DNA of 64,000 nt. Origin: Dehalococcoidia bacterium (lineage in GTDB: Bacteria; Chloroflexota; Dehalococcoidia; SpSt-223). The stretch is taken from positions 327,008 to 391,007 of the forward strand of contig JANWZD010000001.1 in assembly GCA_025054935.1 (NCBI GenBank). The letters are read 5' to 3'. The translations under genes and the position numbers were made by a program. The notes under the pieces were generated by a model. That model ran no database searches. It was not told the DNA's origin and saw nothing but the letters and a program-made list of their open reading frames with translations. Shown in pieces: positions 18,423 to 24,320 of this stretch; the first letter of the stretch is position 1, and the number at the start of each line of letters is the position of its first letter.

Positions 18423-19636
18423 CGCGCAGCGGTTGTCCGATACACCTTGAGGATGAGATGCACTGTGGTGTCCCACGACTGACGAGCGACGACGTGGGAG
18501 CGCAGGGCACGGCCGAGCTGCTCGCGCCGGACGGGGTCGGCGATCAGTTCGCCGAGCCGGTCCGCCAACGAGTGGGGATCGCCCTGCCGGGCATACACCC
18601 CGAGGTCGCCGAGGATCTCGCGGGCAACCGGCGTATCAAAGGCGACGGTCGGCAAGCCGGCCGCTTGGTAATTGAGAAGCTTGCCGTTCCCCTCCGTCTC
18701 GGAAAGCTTGGGCGAGACGGCAATGTCGCCAATGAGAAGGTAGTCCGGCGCTTCGCGGTACGGGATCCGTCCCGTAAACGTAACCCGGCTTGCGATGCCG
18801 AGTTCGGCGGCGATGCGGCTGTAGGTGTCTTCGCCGGGGAAACCCATCACGAGGTAGTGGGCATCGACCCCGCGCCGAGTGAGCAGCGTGGCCGCTTCGA
18901 GCAGCTTGCTCGTGCCCTGATACTCGGAGAGCAAGCCGAGGTAGACGACCACCGGCCGGCCTTCCGGGATGCCGAGCCGAGCGCGCAGGGCGGCGATCCG
19001 CTGCAGGTCGGGGTGCTCCCAGCGCGGGATGAATCGATGCGGGTCCACCGAGTCGGGAACGGTCGCAATGCGCGAGGGAGGAACATCGAACTGCTCTGCC
19101 AAGATCGTCGCCGCGTTCTGGGAACTGGTGATGATCGCGTCGGGCAGGCGCGTGATCAGCCGCTCCAGCCGCAGCAGGGGGCGATACCACGGGCTCCCGC
19201 GCGAGAGCCAGCCATGGTCGATCATCTCGCTGGTGAGGCTTCCCTGAAAGTCGAAGATCAGGGGGATCCGGAGCGGGCGGGCGACCAACGCCCCGATTAG
19301 CGCGCCCTCATGAAGGTGGGCATGGATCACTGTGGGCCGCAGCCGAAGCGCGACGTGAAGGGTCCGCACCGCAAGGAGCAGGTCGAACAGGGGCTTCCGT
19401 TTCGACGGCCCGGCCTTGATCGACTGGAGGATCGGCAGCGGGAATGCTCGACGCACATCGAGCGCGGGCGGGTCGTCGCCGGACGGGTAGGTGACGATGG
19501 TGACGCGGTGGCCGAGCCGGCGAAGCGCCTCGCTCTCTTCCAGGATCCGAACGTGACAGCCGTAATCAGCGAAGAAGGAGGTGGGCGCGATCTTGAGAAC
19601 GGTCCAGCGCTCGAGCGCTTCCCGCTGCCCGCTCAC
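18419..19636 (-). CDS. Glycosyltransferase family 4
   Basis: 405 residues with the GT-B two-domain layout. N-terminal DYGCHVRILEESEALRRLGH and HAHLHEGALIGAL; C-terminal PVVVYLGLLSEYQGT, FTGRIPYREAPDYL and the donor-binding SETEGNGKLLNYQAAGLP with its Glu. It transfers a sugar from an NDP-sugar, likely the product of the next gene, in surface glycan synthesis. Confidence 0.9.
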   Translation of the reverse strand: MSGQREALERWTVLKIAPTSFFADYGCHVRILEESEALRRLGHRVTIVTYPSGDDPPALDVRRAFPLPILQSIKAGPSKRKPLFDLLLAVRTLHVALRLRPTVIHAHLHEGALIGALVARPLRIPLIFDFQGSLTSEMIDHGWLSRGSPWYRPLLRLERLITRLPDAIITSSQNAATILAEQFDVPPSRIATVPDSVDPHRFIPRWEHPDLQRIAALRARLGIPEGRPVVVYLGLLSEYQGTSKLLEAATLLTRRGVDAHYLVMGFPGEDTYSRIAAELGIASRVTFTGRIPYREAPDYLLIGDIAVSPKLSETEGNGKLLNYQAAGLPTVAFDTPVAREILGDLGVYARQGDPHSLADRLGELIADPVRREQLGRALRSHVVARQSWDTTVHLILKVYRTTAAR

Positions 19637-19651
19637 TCGCGCCCCCCGCAG

Positions 19652-19864
19652 CTAGCGGCTGCGCGGGGAAAACGCGGCGCCCGAGTTGATCGGCTCGTTG
19701 ATGAACACATCGCCGTTACGGATCTTGATGTTGAAGCCGCAAGCCGGGTTTGTGCACACCCATGCTTTGTAGTGGATCGGAGCTCCTTGACTGCCAAAAT
19801 CGGAAAGAGGTAGGAGATCCCCGGTCTTGCACTGTTGACAACGTGGCCAGTGGAGTGGCTCCAT
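19652..19864 (-). CDS. Small zinc-ribbon protein
   Basis: 70 residues. Two cysteine pairs, CQQC near residue 9 and CTNPAC near residue 36, form a probable zinc ribbon. The ATG at 19864 follows GGAGAAG. It is the first gene upstream of the glycosyltransferase string. Small zinc ribbons of this sort are often of unknown role. A second, unrelated-looking one occurs at 31242. Confidence 0.6.
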   Translation of the reverse strand: MEPLHWPRCQQCKTGDLLPLSDFGSQGAPIHYKAWVCTNPACGFNIKIRNGDVFINEPINSGAAFSPRSR

Positions 19865-20358
19865 GATCTTCTCCGTCCTCGACGCGCGACGTCGCTGGAA
19901 CCGCCCACGGCTCGCCTCGATTATTCCTTGGCGGCGGCGAGTATACTCGAGGCGCCGGTGCCGGGCAACCGTGCCCGTGCTTGCTGCTCCTCATTGAGGA
20001 GGGGGAACGGGGCGGGTCGCTCGCTGAATGATACGGCACAACTTCTGGAACTGGCGCCCCCAGCCAGCAGCGCGCGCAAGGCCCACCCCGCAAAGCGCTG
20101 CCGGCGGGCAAGGGTGCGGCGTCTGCCGACAGTTCCTCTTCGCAGCTTCTGCGCCGCGGCCCTCTCCTCCGCCGGTGCGGGGCGCCCCCGCTGGACAAGG
20201 CAGCGCCCTCCCGGGGGCCAGCCCGTTCCCGCGGACGAACGGGCAGCGCGCCGGGCACCAGGTTCAGAGCGCGACGACTGCGCTGGACATTCGTTTCGTC
20301 GCCGCATCATCGCCTCGTTCTCCAGCCTTGAAGGCGCTCCGCGCATGGATTTGGGGTC
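19865..20358. other. Intergenic region with no recognised gene
   Basis: About 490 bp between the divergent zinc-ribbon gene and the RNA unit. Open frames here are short, arginine-rich and show no domain; no repeat or tRNA was seen. Confidence 0.5.
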
Positions 20359-20387
20359 TTGACACGCCCAAAAGGGCGCGATATAGT
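20359..20387 (+). promoter_or_regulatory. Strong sigma70-type promoter for a noncoding RNA
   Basis: TTGACA (20359-20364), a 17-nt spacer and TATAGT (20382-20387). Both hexamers and the spacing are near consensus. The predicted transcription start is about 20394. It is followed by no good ORF before the terminator at 20514-20549. Confidence 0.8.
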
Positions 20388-20393
20388 GTGGTC

Positions 20394-20553
20394 GCGACGA
20401 AGGGTAGGCGCGAGGCTGGGCGTCGGGAGACGCCGGATGGGATCCCGCGACGAGCGGAGCGGTGAGGTAAACTCGAGTGCGAGTGTGTAGCGCCTACACC
20501 AGACGGCGTCGGCAAAGGAGAGGCGGGGTCAATCCCCCGCCTCTCCTTTAGTA
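20394..20553 (+). ncRNA. Candidate structured noncoding RNA or leader RNA (unassigned class)
   Basis: A transcript of about 155-160 nt is bounded by a near-consensus promoter and an intrinsic terminator. Visible structure: a closing helix between GGTAGGCGC near 20403-20411 and GCGCCTACACC near 20490-20500; a 6-bp hairpin GGCGTC/GACGCC (20419-20434, GGGA loop); a CTCG/CGAG hairpin near 20472-20483. The segment GACGCCG (20429-20435) can pair instead with CGGCGTC (20504-20510) just before the terminator, so two exclusive folds are possible. It lies 80 nt upstream of the dehydrogenase/cupin fusion and could be an attenuating leader or an independent sRNA. I tried 6S, SRP, tmRNA, RNase P and common riboswitch motifs and recognised none. 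Confidence 0.6.
20514..20549 (+). terminator. Intrinsic terminator of the noncoding RNA
   Basis: A perfect 15-bp stem, AAAGGAGAGGCGGGG (20514-20528) with CCCCGCCTCTCCTTT (20535-20549), and a 6-nt loop. The downstream T run is short, but the stem ends in its own AAA/TTT. Confidence 0.8.
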
Positions 20554-20632
20554 TTTGGCAGAGTGCTCCTCGGGCGCAGCATATCTCTGCATGGACGCAT
20601 GCTCCTCTGCTTGCGCTTCTGGGAGTTCGCGC

Positions 20633-21982
20633 ATGAGCCATGAGGTCACGCTGATCCCCGGCGATGGGATTGGGCCGGAAGTGACCGCCGCAGCCCGGCG
20701 CGTCATCGACGCAAGCGGCGTGTCGATCCGCTGGCAGGAGAAGCTGGCAGGACAGGCAGCGGTGGACGCCGGCGGCGACCCGCTGCCTCCCGATACGCTC
20801 GAGTCGATCCGGCAGACGAAAGTCGCGCTGAAAGGGCCGACTGCCACCCCGATCGGCGCGGGCTTCCGAAGCATCAATGTGGCCCTCCGTCAAGCGCTTG
20901 AGCTCTACGCAAATGTCCGTCCCGTGCGGTCGTACCGCGGGATCCGCTCCCCGTTCGAGGATGTCGATCTCGTCATCATCCGCGAAAACACCGAGGACCT
21001 CTACGTCGGGATCGAGCATCAGGTCGATGACCTCGGCGCAGTCGGGTTCAAGATCACCACCCGCAAAGGCTCAGAACGGATCGCGCGCTTTGCATTCGAG
21101 TACGCAAAACGCTTTGGCCGCCGAACCGTCACCGCCGTGCACAAGGCGAACATTTTCCATGCCAGCGACGGCCTCTTTCTCGCCTCCTGCCGCCGCATTG
21201 CCGGGAGCTATCCCGAAATCGAGTATCAGGAACGGCTGGTTGATAACCTCGCCGTGCAGATGATCCGGCGTCCCCGCGATTTCGATGTCCTGCTCCTACC
21301 GAACCTGTATGGCGACATCTATTCAGACCTCTGCGCCGGGCTCGTCGGCGGCCTCGGGGTCGCGCCCGGCGCCAACATCGGAGAGCACGGCGCAATCTTC
21401 GAGGCGGTTCACGGCACCGCCCCCGATATCGCGGGCAAGAACCTCGCCAACCCGACCGCGATGATCCTTTCGGCGGTGATGATGCTCGAACATCTGGGCG
21501 AATTCGATGCCGCCGCCCGGATCACCGCCGCCGTAGAGGCAGTTCTCGCGGAAGGATGGGCCGTTACACGGGATCTCGGCGGCGAGGCGACGACTACGGC
21601 GATGACCGACGCCATCATCAAACGCCTCGAGACGACCCGCGGCGCTACGCGAGCGCCTCTCGACGAGAATAGCCGGGTTGCCGATGTCCTCCGCGCCGCC
21701 GCAACGGCCGGCCACGACGGCCCCGTCTGGAATGCGACCACCCCTGATTTTCACCTGACGGTGGTCTCCTACCGCGACAACCGCGGCTCCAGCTCGCATG
21801 TCAACCCTGAGTTTGATCAGCTGGTCGTGGTCCTCGAGGGCGAGGGGGTGCTTGAGATCGCCGGCGAGCGCTATCCCCTCCATGCCGGTGAAGTCGCTTA
21901 TCTCCCGAAAGGAACGCGCCGCCAGATCCGCGCCGACGGCGACCGTCTGGTCTATCTCGTGGTCAATCGCCGTCCTTCCTAG
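20633..21982 (+). CDS. Isocitrate/isopropylmalate dehydrogenase family enzyme fused to a C-terminal cupin domain
   Basis: 449 residues. Residues 1 to about 335 are a beta-decarboxylating dehydrogenase: LIPGDGIGPEV, the RENTEDLYVGIEHQ block, the catalytic VHKANIF Lys, YGDIYSDLCAGLVGGLG and the NAD-binding HGTAPDIAGKNLANP. RENTEDLYVGIE favours an NAD-dependent isocitrate dehydrogenase. From about 374 to the end is a cupin: SSHVNPEFDQLVVVLEGEG and GEVAYLPKGTRRQI. Such a fusion is unusual and may give small-ligand regulation. The ATG at 20633 has GGGAG upstream. It lies 80 nt after the RNA terminator, so read-through control is conceivable. Confidence 0.88.
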   Translation: MSHEVTLIPGDGIGPEVTAAARRVIDASGVSIRWQEKLAGQAAVDAGGDPLPPDTLESIRQTKVALKGPTATPIGAGFRSINVALRQALELYANVRPVRSYRGIRSPFEDVDLVIIRENTEDLYVGIEHQVDDLGAVGFKITTRKGSERIARFAFEYAKRFGRRTVTAVHKANIFHASDGLFLASCRRIAGSYPEIEYQERLVDNLAVQMIRRPRDFDVLLLPNLYGDIYSDLCAGLVGGLGVAPGANIGEHGAIFEAVHGTAPDIAGKNLANPTAMILSAVMMLEHLGEFDAAARITAAVEAVLAEGWAVTRDLGGEATTTAMTDAIIKRLETTRGATRAPLDENSRVADVLRAAATAGHDGPVWNATTPDFHLTVVSYRDNRGSSSHVNPEFDQLVVVLEGEGVLEIAGERYPLHAGEVAYLPKGTRRQIRADGDRLVYLVVNRRPS

Positions 21983-22128
21983 GCGCGGGCGATCGCTGCC
22001 GCCGCTCTGCCCATTTTCTTCGGCGCGCTGCCCCAGCCGGATCCGCTACTGTTCCGGCATCAGGCGCACCACCGTTTGCCCGCACGATGTGCGCTTCCGC
22101 CGCCATCCACGCGGGAGGCGAGGGACCG

Positions 22129-22770
22129 ATGCTGCTGCTTGACTCGGCCAACCCGGAAGAGGCGCGTCGCGCCGCAACGCTGGGCTATGTTCACGGCGCC
22201 ACAACCAACCCGCTCCTCATCGCGCGCAGCGGCATGTCCGGCCGGGCGGTGATCGAAGCGCTGCTCGCTGCGCTGCCCGGCCCCGTGTTCTACCAGCCAG
22301 TTGCCGACCGCGTCGACGCGATGGTGGCGGAGGGTCGCCACATCCTCGCTCTCGCTCCCGACCGCGTCGTCCTCAAGCTCCCCTGCACCCCGGCAGGCCT
22401 TGCTGCGGGGGCAGCGCTGCGCAACCACGCGATCTTCAGCGTCACGGCAGTGTTCACGCCAGCGCAGGCGATCGTCGCGGCCGCGGTCGGCGCGCGCTAC
22501 ATCATTCCGTATCTGAGCCGTCTGAACCGAGCGGCGGGGAACGGCGCCGCCGTAATCGAGCAGATGGCAGCGGTAGCAGGAGAAGCAGACCTGCTTGTCG
22601 CTAGCCTCAAGTCGGTGGATGAGGCGGTTCGCGCCCGGCGCGCCGGCGCCCGCCACCTGACCTTGCCGCTGTCGCTGCTGGAAGAAATGGCCGTCAGCCC
22701 GCTGACGGAACTCGTCGTGGAGGAATTTCGCCGTGCCGGCGCGCGCGTCGATGAGGCAGCTGCACGCTGA
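22129..22770 (+). CDS. Transaldolase / fructose-6-phosphate aldolase-like protein
   Basis: 213 residues, the size of the short TalC/MipB branch. GATTNPLLIARSG is the N-terminal signature. VVLKLPCTPAG carries Lys83, the Schiff-base lysine position, and FSVTAVFTPAQA and RYIIPYLSRLNR follow the barrel order. The start at 22129 begins the conserved MLLLDSANPEEA segment. It acts on phosphorylated sugars by aldol cleavage or transfer; transaldolase and fructose-6-phosphate aldolase activities cannot be told apart from this sequence. Confidence 0.83.
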   Translation: MLLLDSANPEEARRAATLGYVHGATTNPLLIARSGMSGRAVIEALLAALPGPVFYQPVADRVDAMVAEGRHILALAPDRVVLKLPCTPAGLAAGAALRNHAIFSVTAVFTPAQAIVAAAVGARYIIPYLSRLNRAAGNGAAVIEQMAAVAGEADLLVASLKSVDEAVRARRAGARHLTLPLSLLEEMAVSPLTELVVEEFRRAGARVDEAAAR

Positions 22771-22850
22771 CCGTTTCAGTCGGATCGCGCCGTAGAGTAC
22801 AATGGGATGCCGCCGGGAAAAGCGGCAAGCGTTCGGTAGAGGAAGAGACC

Positions 22851-24320
22851 ATGGCGAAGTACGATCTCGCGATCTTGAACGGTACCCTCGTCATCCCCTT
22901 TGTCGGGCCGGTTCGAGCCGATGTCGCAGCGCGCGACGGGAAGATCGTCGCTATCCATGACGCCATCGCTCCTTCCGAAGCGGACCAAGTCGTCGATGCG
23001 AAAGGGAAGCTCGTCTTCCCAGGCGCCGTCGACTCGCACTTCCATATCGGGATCTACCGGCCGATCTCGGTCGATGCGGAGAGCGAGACGATGTCCGCGC
23101 TGGTCGGTGGGGTGACTTCAATCCTCAGCTACTTCCGCACGGGTCACCACTACCTCGACAAGACCGGGCCCTATCGCGAGATCTATCCTGAGGTGCTCGA
23201 GGCGACCGCGGGACACGCCTACACCGATTACGGGTATCACATCGGTATCATGACGAGCGCCCAGATCGAGGAGATCGACTGGCTCGTGGGCGAGATGGGG
23301 GTCGCCTCGTTCAAGTACTTCATGTTCTACAAGGGGCTTAACCTCTCTGCCTCATCGACAGCTGGGCTGTCGTACACCATGAGCGATGTCTATGACCTCG
23401 GTCATCTCTACCGCTACATGCAGGCGGTCGTTCGCGCCAAGCTGAAATACAAGCAGCGGATCAGCCTCTCTCTCCACGCCGAGCATGCTGAGATCATCCG
23501 GACGATGATCGATGAGGTGAAGGAACTCGGCCTTCAAGGGCTCGAAGCGTATCACCGGGCGCGGCCGCCGTTCCAAGAGCGGCTGGCGATCGCCGAGGCG
23601 GCGCTGCTTGCCGATGTGACCCAGTGTCCGATCAACCTGCTCCACCTCTCGAGCGCCGAGGCACTGCAGGGCGGGATGAAGGCGCGGCTGGACTATCCCT
23701 CGCTCGACATTCAACTTGAGACCACCCTCCATCATCTCTGCTTGACCTTTGAAACGGCGCACGGCGGGATCGAGAGCGCCAAGGTGAATCCGCCCATCCG
23801 AACAAAGGAAGACAACGAGGCGCTCTGGGCCGGCGTTCTGCGCGGGGATATCGACCAAGTGGTGTCGGACCATGCCTGCTGCATGTTTGAGATGAAGCAA
23901 GGAGGGGTCTGGGAGGCCCAGCCGGGCTTCGGCGGCACGAGCTTGATCTACCCGGTGATGGTCTCCGAAGGCTACCACAAGCGCGGACTGCCGCTCGCGC
24001 GCGTCGCGGAACTGGTGAGCGCTCAGCCGGCACGGAACTACGGCCTCTACCCGCGCAAAGGCACGATCGCAATCGGCTCGGATGCAGACTTCGCGGTCGT
24101 CGACCCCGAGTTGGAGCAGACCGTGCACACCGAACTGCTCCTTTCGGCGCAAGACCACACCCCGTTCGAGGGCTATCACCTCAAGGGGTGGCCCGTTCAG
24201 ACAATCCGCGCCGGCAAGGTGATGTTCGACCGCGGCAAAGTAGTTGGGAAGCCGGACGGTCAGTATCTGCGGCGGCCGGACGCCCTCTTCAGCGCCAAGC
24301 GCGAGCCCGTTCCGGCGTAG
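22851..24320 (+). CDS. Cyclic amidohydrolase (dihydropyrimidinase/hydantoinase/dihydroorotase-like)
   Basis: 489 residues. An amidohydrolase barrel with a flanking beta-sandwich: VFPGAVDSHFHIG holds His63 and His65, ASFKYFMFYKG supplies the lysine usually carboxylated to bridge two metals, SLHAEHAE and NLLHLSS give the other histidines, and QVVSDHACC the catalytic Asp. Members hydrolyse cyclic amides such as dihydropyrimidines, hydantoins or allantoin. The motif set fits the D-hydantoinase/dihydropyrimidinase group, but substrate choice is not readable. RBS GAGGAAGAG precedes 22851, and a TACAAT -10-like box lies at 22798-22803. It shares a likely substrate class with the HyuA/HyuB microcompartment enzymes 32 kb away. 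Confidence 0.87.
   Translation: MAKYDLAILNGTLVIPFVGPVRADVAARDGKIVAIHDAIAPSEADQVVDAKGKLVFPGAVDSHFHIGIYRPISVDAESETMSALVGGVTSILSYFRTGHHYLDKTGPYREIYPEVLEATAGHAYTDYGYHIGIMTSAQIEEIDWLVGEMGVASFKYFMFYKGLNLSASSTAGLSYTMSDVYDLGHLYRYMQAVVRAKLKYKQRISLSLHAEHAEIIRTMIDEVKELGLQGLEAYHRARPPFQERLAIAEAALLADVTQCPINLLHLSSAEALQGGMKARLDYPSLDIQLETTLHHLCLTFETAHGGIESAKVNPPIRTKEDNEALWAGVLRGDIDQVVSDHACCMFEMKQGGVWEAQPGFGGTSLIYPVMVSEGYHKRGLPLARVAELVSAQPARNYGLYPRKGTIAIGSDADFAVVDPELEQTVHTELLLSAQDHTPFEGYHLKGWPVQTIRAGKVMFDRGKVVGKPDGQYLRRPDALFSAKREPVPA

Follow-up and report, generated by a model that had tools for sequence, protein, structure and literature searches.

In the window analysed here, a stretch of 64,000 nucleotides from a Dehalococcoidia bacterium (contig JANWZD010000001.1), a sigma-70 type promoter and a 15-bp terminator-like hairpin enclose a gene-free stretch that lies ahead of a gene for an isocitrate/isopropylmalate dehydrogenase with a C-terminal cupin (Table 1). 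The promoter, the gene-free segment, the hairpin and the position before an isocitrate-dehydrogenase/cupin gene had been described in an initial annotation of this DNA, and all of them are indeed present in the window. The dehydrogenase-cupin gene is itself followed by a transaldolase-like gene (22087–22770) and by an amidohydrolase-family gene (22851–24320).

Table 1. Features of the predicted RNA gene and its downstream neighbour, in window positions.
Feature	Positions	Strand	Details
Sigma-70 type promoter, TTGACA-17-TATAGT	20359–20387	+	−35 at 20359–20364, −10 at 20382–20387
Structured RNA body, four helices	20394–20512	+	Covariance-model matches in 11 genomes; covariation
P1 closing stem, 5' arm	20395–20411	+	Pairs with 20490–20511; inner 8 bp, 20404–20411 with 20490–20497
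GAGGC, 5' side of internal loop atop P1	20412–20416	+	Faces GUGUA; invariant in alignment
P2 hairpin, GGCGUC/GACGCC	20419–20434	+	Near-invariant stem; one pair doubly changed, one G-U
P3 hairpin, CCGC/GCGG	20445–20457	+	Double changes in 2 of 3 counted pairs
J3/4 junction, purine-rich, unpaired in consensus	20458–20470	+	Carries GAGGUAA, invariant in 11 of 11
P4 hairpin, 5 bp and tetraloop	20471–20484	+	Double changes in 4 of 5 pairs
GUGUA, 3' side of internal loop atop P1	20485–20489	+	Conserved in alignment
P1 closing stem, 3' arm	20490–20511	+	Covariation and arm-swap test
Terminator-like hairpin, 15 bp, weak T tail	20514–20549	+	Arms 20514–20528 and 20535–20549, perfect pairing
Isocitrate/isopropylmalate dehydrogenase with C-terminal cupin	20634–21982	+	Downstream gene; neighbour in genus only, outside RNA gene

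The window promoter matches 11 of the 12 consensus bases with a spacer of 17 nt, and it is the sole promoter-like site on the + strand within positions 19600–22900 (3.3 kb), a region for which shuffled sequences lead one to expect 0.4 sites on both strands together. Near-consensus promoters ending 3–6 nt upstream of the model start were found in nine of the 11 members of the family described below, a result that none of 300 shuffles equalled, and in the two weakest cases (G535 and G042) the site does not exceed chance expectation. Downstream of the RNA body, 9/11 members have a strong hairpin, and in G419 the 3' arm of the closing stem (P1) itself continues into a T tract. The tail after the window hairpin, AGTATTTGG, is poor in T, which explains why this hairpin is missing from the list returned by a strict terminator scan. 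With a promoter just 5' and a hairpin just 3' of the body, the transcript should begin in P1 and stop just past it. Transcription likely starts at about position 20394, and the predicted transcript would span about 155 nt, comprising a folded body of about 120 nt and the terminator hairpin. A window transcript of 160 nt has a predicted folding energy of −84.1 kcal/mol and a z-score of −5.4 that is owed mostly to the terminator hairpin; without this hairpin, the z-score is −1.3 for the window copy and ranges from −1.6 to −3.9 for its relatives.

BLAST searches of 148 related genomes recovered homologs in two genus mates of the window's genome and, in two further families of the class, picked out a core of 80–90 nt. 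A first covariance model (R1), built from these five members, brought in the remaining ones, which a second model (R2), built from 11, confirmed; the search patterns that go with R2 are GCGAGGCTGGGCGTC and GAGGTAAAA..TGTGTAGC. The carriers in the window's class are the window's own genome (G000), G001, G002, G008, G022 and G042, which represent three genomes of one genus and three other families, and those in a second class of the same phylum are G419, G472, G500, G535 and G563. All 11 members score 85–130 bits against R2, and the next-best matches in the phylum reach at most 25 bits, with core motifs that are not in register. Weak covariance-model matches of 15–28 bits were taken as chance on the same grounds of register. 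The RNA is single copy in each carrier and its presence is rare and patchy, at 6 of about 390 genomes sampled in the window's class and 5 of 29 in the second. No match with three correctly spaced patterns was found among viral contigs, and the plasmids and phages searched yielded no matches.

A four-helix fold is common to all 11 members. P1 would arise from pairing between the first 10–18 nt of the predicted transcript and the 3' end of the body, closing the molecule on itself, and above P1 the model places a junction that carries P2, P3 and P4, along with two purine-rich linkers of high conservation. P3, with consensus CCG/CGG, is longer in some members and reaches up to 7 bp. The conserved letters of the core in the alignment are GCGAGGCUGGGCGUC...GACGCCG, GGGAU, CGGAG, GGYGAGGUAAA and GUGUAGC, and mean identity is 81% in the core versus 44% in the P1 arms. 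Judging by its letters, the GAG that faces GUA above P1 may form a G-bulged motif of the loop-E type.

Several lines of evidence support this fold. When the members are aligned by fit to the model, 97.7% of cells are paired and both partners have changed in 14 of 24 pairs, as against 0–5 when partners are slid; within P1, both sides are changed in seven of 10 pairs. Because a model-fitted alignment leans towards the structure, the count was redone on a structure-blind MAFFT alignment covering P2–P4 and the top of P1, in which 99.4% of cells are paired and 7/16 pairs are doubly changed, compared with 0–1 when slid. Lastly, an arm-swap test compared the P1 arms of each member with arms exchanged among nine lineages. 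Own arms average −24.2 kcal/mol and swapped arms −12.6 kcal/mol, and none of 20,000 permutations was as good; a P1 arm hence fits its partner from the same genome but not the partner from another. The covariation in homologs that the initial annotation had called for is thus found in both alignments and in the arm-swap test. No convincing extra covarying pairs or pseudoknot beyond the four helices were found in the alignment. A small peptide gene was considered and deemed unlikely, because lengths change by 1, 3 and 8 nt and the stems covary. The compensatory changes seen across homologs, and the promoter and terminator that most members have for themselves, are features expected of a stand-alone structured ncRNA.

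Comparison with known RNA classes assigns the family to none of them. An Rfam search, which the initial annotation had recommended, was run against Rfam 15 and gave nothing above gathering thresholds in the window, and none of the scanned members belongs to a family in that database. At permissive E-values, the window region returned a few chance-level matches, including microRNA models and PrrB/RsmZ (RF00166), the latter at 25 bits against a gathering threshold of 44; the microRNA-type matches, sub-threshold and built on the terminator hairpin, were rejected. The RF00166 match raises the idea of an sRNA that titrates CsrA in the manner of PrrB/RsmZ, and the window's genome does encode a clear CsrA (G000:C9:90736-90891, locus L067; 85.9 bits), as do several relatives. 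However, in our reading of the alignment this match draws mainly on the terminator hairpin, and it is seen in the window's copy only, being absent from the scanned homologs, among them every scanned member outside the genus. Furthermore, the GGA motifs, which number two to five per member, are not kept in conserved loops, and CsrA, found in six of the 11 carriers and also in non-carriers, was not found in the remaining five, all with assemblies at most 94% complete. With neither an above-gathering score nor repeated loop GGA together with a host CsrA in evidence, a CsrA sponge appears extremely improbable.

The strong promoter, the single copy and the pairing of the ends in a long stem would all suit a diverged version of a housekeeping RNA that is already known (6S, SRP, RNase P, tmRNA or Y RNA). 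In its strong promoter, its paired ends and its free-standing gene, the new RNA resembles 6S RNA (RF00013), but 6S RNA consists of a single long hairpin interrupted by a bubble at its centre, whereas the new RNA is a multi-hairpin junction that gives no RF00013 match and coexists in the carrier G008 with a separate 6S RNA scoring 70.7 bits, above the cut-off. In G042, a probable divergent 6S RNA (G042:C216:3943-4117, locus L060) scores 42.9 bits, just below the Rfam cut-off of 46.4. It follows that the new RNA is something other than 6S in G008, and probably in G042 too, and the proviso of the initial annotation that a 6S match would remove novelty does not apply. Y RNA and YrlA feature a long closing stem under a multi-branched module, an arrangement shared by the new RNA, which differs from them in its lack of any Rfam match, in a P4 tetraloop in place of a T-loop, and in that a TROVE (Ro60/Rsr) protein was found in one carrier but not in the other 10. 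The scanned members gave no Rfam match beyond chance even at permissive E-values, and a patchy presence is a poor fit to an essential housekeeping RNA, so that a divergent housekeeping RNA is very improbable. Orphan stand-alone structured RNAs from comparative genomics (e.g., PMC2864571) rest on the same kind of evidence, namely covariation and a conserved core with no assigned function, but those of their families that are in Rfam 15 do not match the new RNA. The core strings were absent from the paper texts of the literature searched, which held no report of such an RNA. The first description of the segment as an unassigned structured RNA or small RNA is therefore upheld by its homologs, its covariation, its own promoter and the absence of Rfam families.

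The initial annotation had also suggested a leader or riboswitch-like attenuator with two exclusive folds. As a cis-acting leader of the dehydrogenase-cupin gene, the RNA would toggle between P2 and a pairing of P2 with a 3' arm before the terminator. The complementarity on which this idea was based exists in the window, where GACGCCG (20429–20435) perfectly matches CGGCGTC (20504–20510), but none of the 10 homologs has pairing of this type, not even those of the genus; the best contiguous pairing among these 10 is 2–4 bp. In the predicted window fold, moreover, 20507–20511 pairs instead with 20395–20399 in P1. The two exclusive folds were rejected as a switch, the alternative pairing being private to the window's genome, and the family keeps no alternative pairing that involves the terminator region, as a leader would.

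The genomic context is constant within the genus, where the RNA lies upstream of the dehydrogenase-cupin gene, on the same strand, in all three genomes. This constancy, together with the lack of a second promoter-like site on the + strand before that gene in the window, makes some read-through regulation possible in the genus. Outside the genus, however, unrelated genes flank the RNA: G008 has an AMP-binding enzyme and a PrsW-like protein, G563 a HAD hydrolase, G472 an FmdB-type zinc ribbon and DUF5722, G419 and G500 zinc-ribbon and DUF5679 genes, and G042 Usp. Three carriers (G008, G022 and G563) lack any same-strand gene in the first 1 kb downstream, and in G008 and G563 the next downstream gene is convergent. 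A conserved position ahead of same-strand, functionally related genes, the hallmark of a riboswitch or attenuator leader, is not found, and the unrelated neighbours outside the genus indicate that a leader role is not the shared function. With a switch private to the window, a dehydrogenase neighbour restricted to the genus and at least three lineages devoid of a same-strand gene within 1 kb downstream, the cis-acting leader proposed at first is quite improbable. The lack of a fixed neighbour, combined with an own promoter and terminator, marks the predicted RNA gene as independent of its neighbours.

Two further regularities were observed in the surroundings of the RNA. A gene of the polyA-polymerase/CCA-adding type occurs near it in two families of the second class (L056, 4309–5742; L057, 8214–9722), directly upstream in G535 and two genes away in G563, which perhaps reflects local synteny only. 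In several lineages the RNA also has small genes for zinc-ribbon or cysteine-rich proteins close by (zf_Tbcl, DUF5679, Zn_ribbon_8 and a CxxC protein of 70 aa), at L053 7460–7786, L055 7226–7900, L054 7514–7762 and window positions 19652–19864; since they differ in family and position, their closeness to the RNA is possibly due to chance.

Gene architecture, fold, conservation and the lack of a fixed neighbour gene, all legible from the nucleotide sequence, are best accommodated by a free-standing, constitutively transcribed structured ncRNA serving as a trans-acting platform for a protein or small molecule, a reading that we consider probable. The patchy presence, and in the genus the constant downstream gene, count against it. 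For this predicted RNA, we infer transcription, abundance and the binding of a partner by the core. The working part would be the conserved core, and not the freely varying sequence of P1, and action in trans would proceed through recognition of the folded platform by a protein or small molecule; that the RNA acts in trans and that its core binds such a partner is likewise rather probable. The main rival is a trans-acting antisense sRNA, in which the unpaired linker GGYGAGGUAAAA would serve as a seed for pyrimidine-rich mRNA sites or for the 16S rRNA end that carries the anti-Shine-Dalgarno sequence. In its favour, the GAGGUAA of the linker is both invariant and unpaired in the consensus, in a gene with its own promoter and terminator. 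However, conservation extends over about 70 nt and includes the letters of the P2 stem, far beyond what a seed needs, and pairing to the 16S end would amount in our own reading to only about 5 bp. An antisense role is hence rather unlikely, and about 70 conserved nucleotides spread over junctions and stems conform to the pattern of an aptamer or RNP core rather than to that of a pairing sRNA, in which as a rule just a short seed is conserved. Within the favoured reading of a folded trans-acting platform, it is a tentative possibility that the core constitutes the RNA part of an undescribed RNP, or else that the RNA senses a ligand or acts as a catalyst by itself, with a mode of action unlike that of known bacterial RNA classes.

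The RNA described here adds a new family, with no Rfam entry, to the stand-alone structured RNAs already recognised as a kind. Its strong covariation supports an RNA family in bacterial lineages with little known RNA biology. About 70 nucleotides are nearly fixed while the closing stem drifts freely, which implies a specific partner. The models, promoter and boundaries that are now defined make the RNA directly testable.
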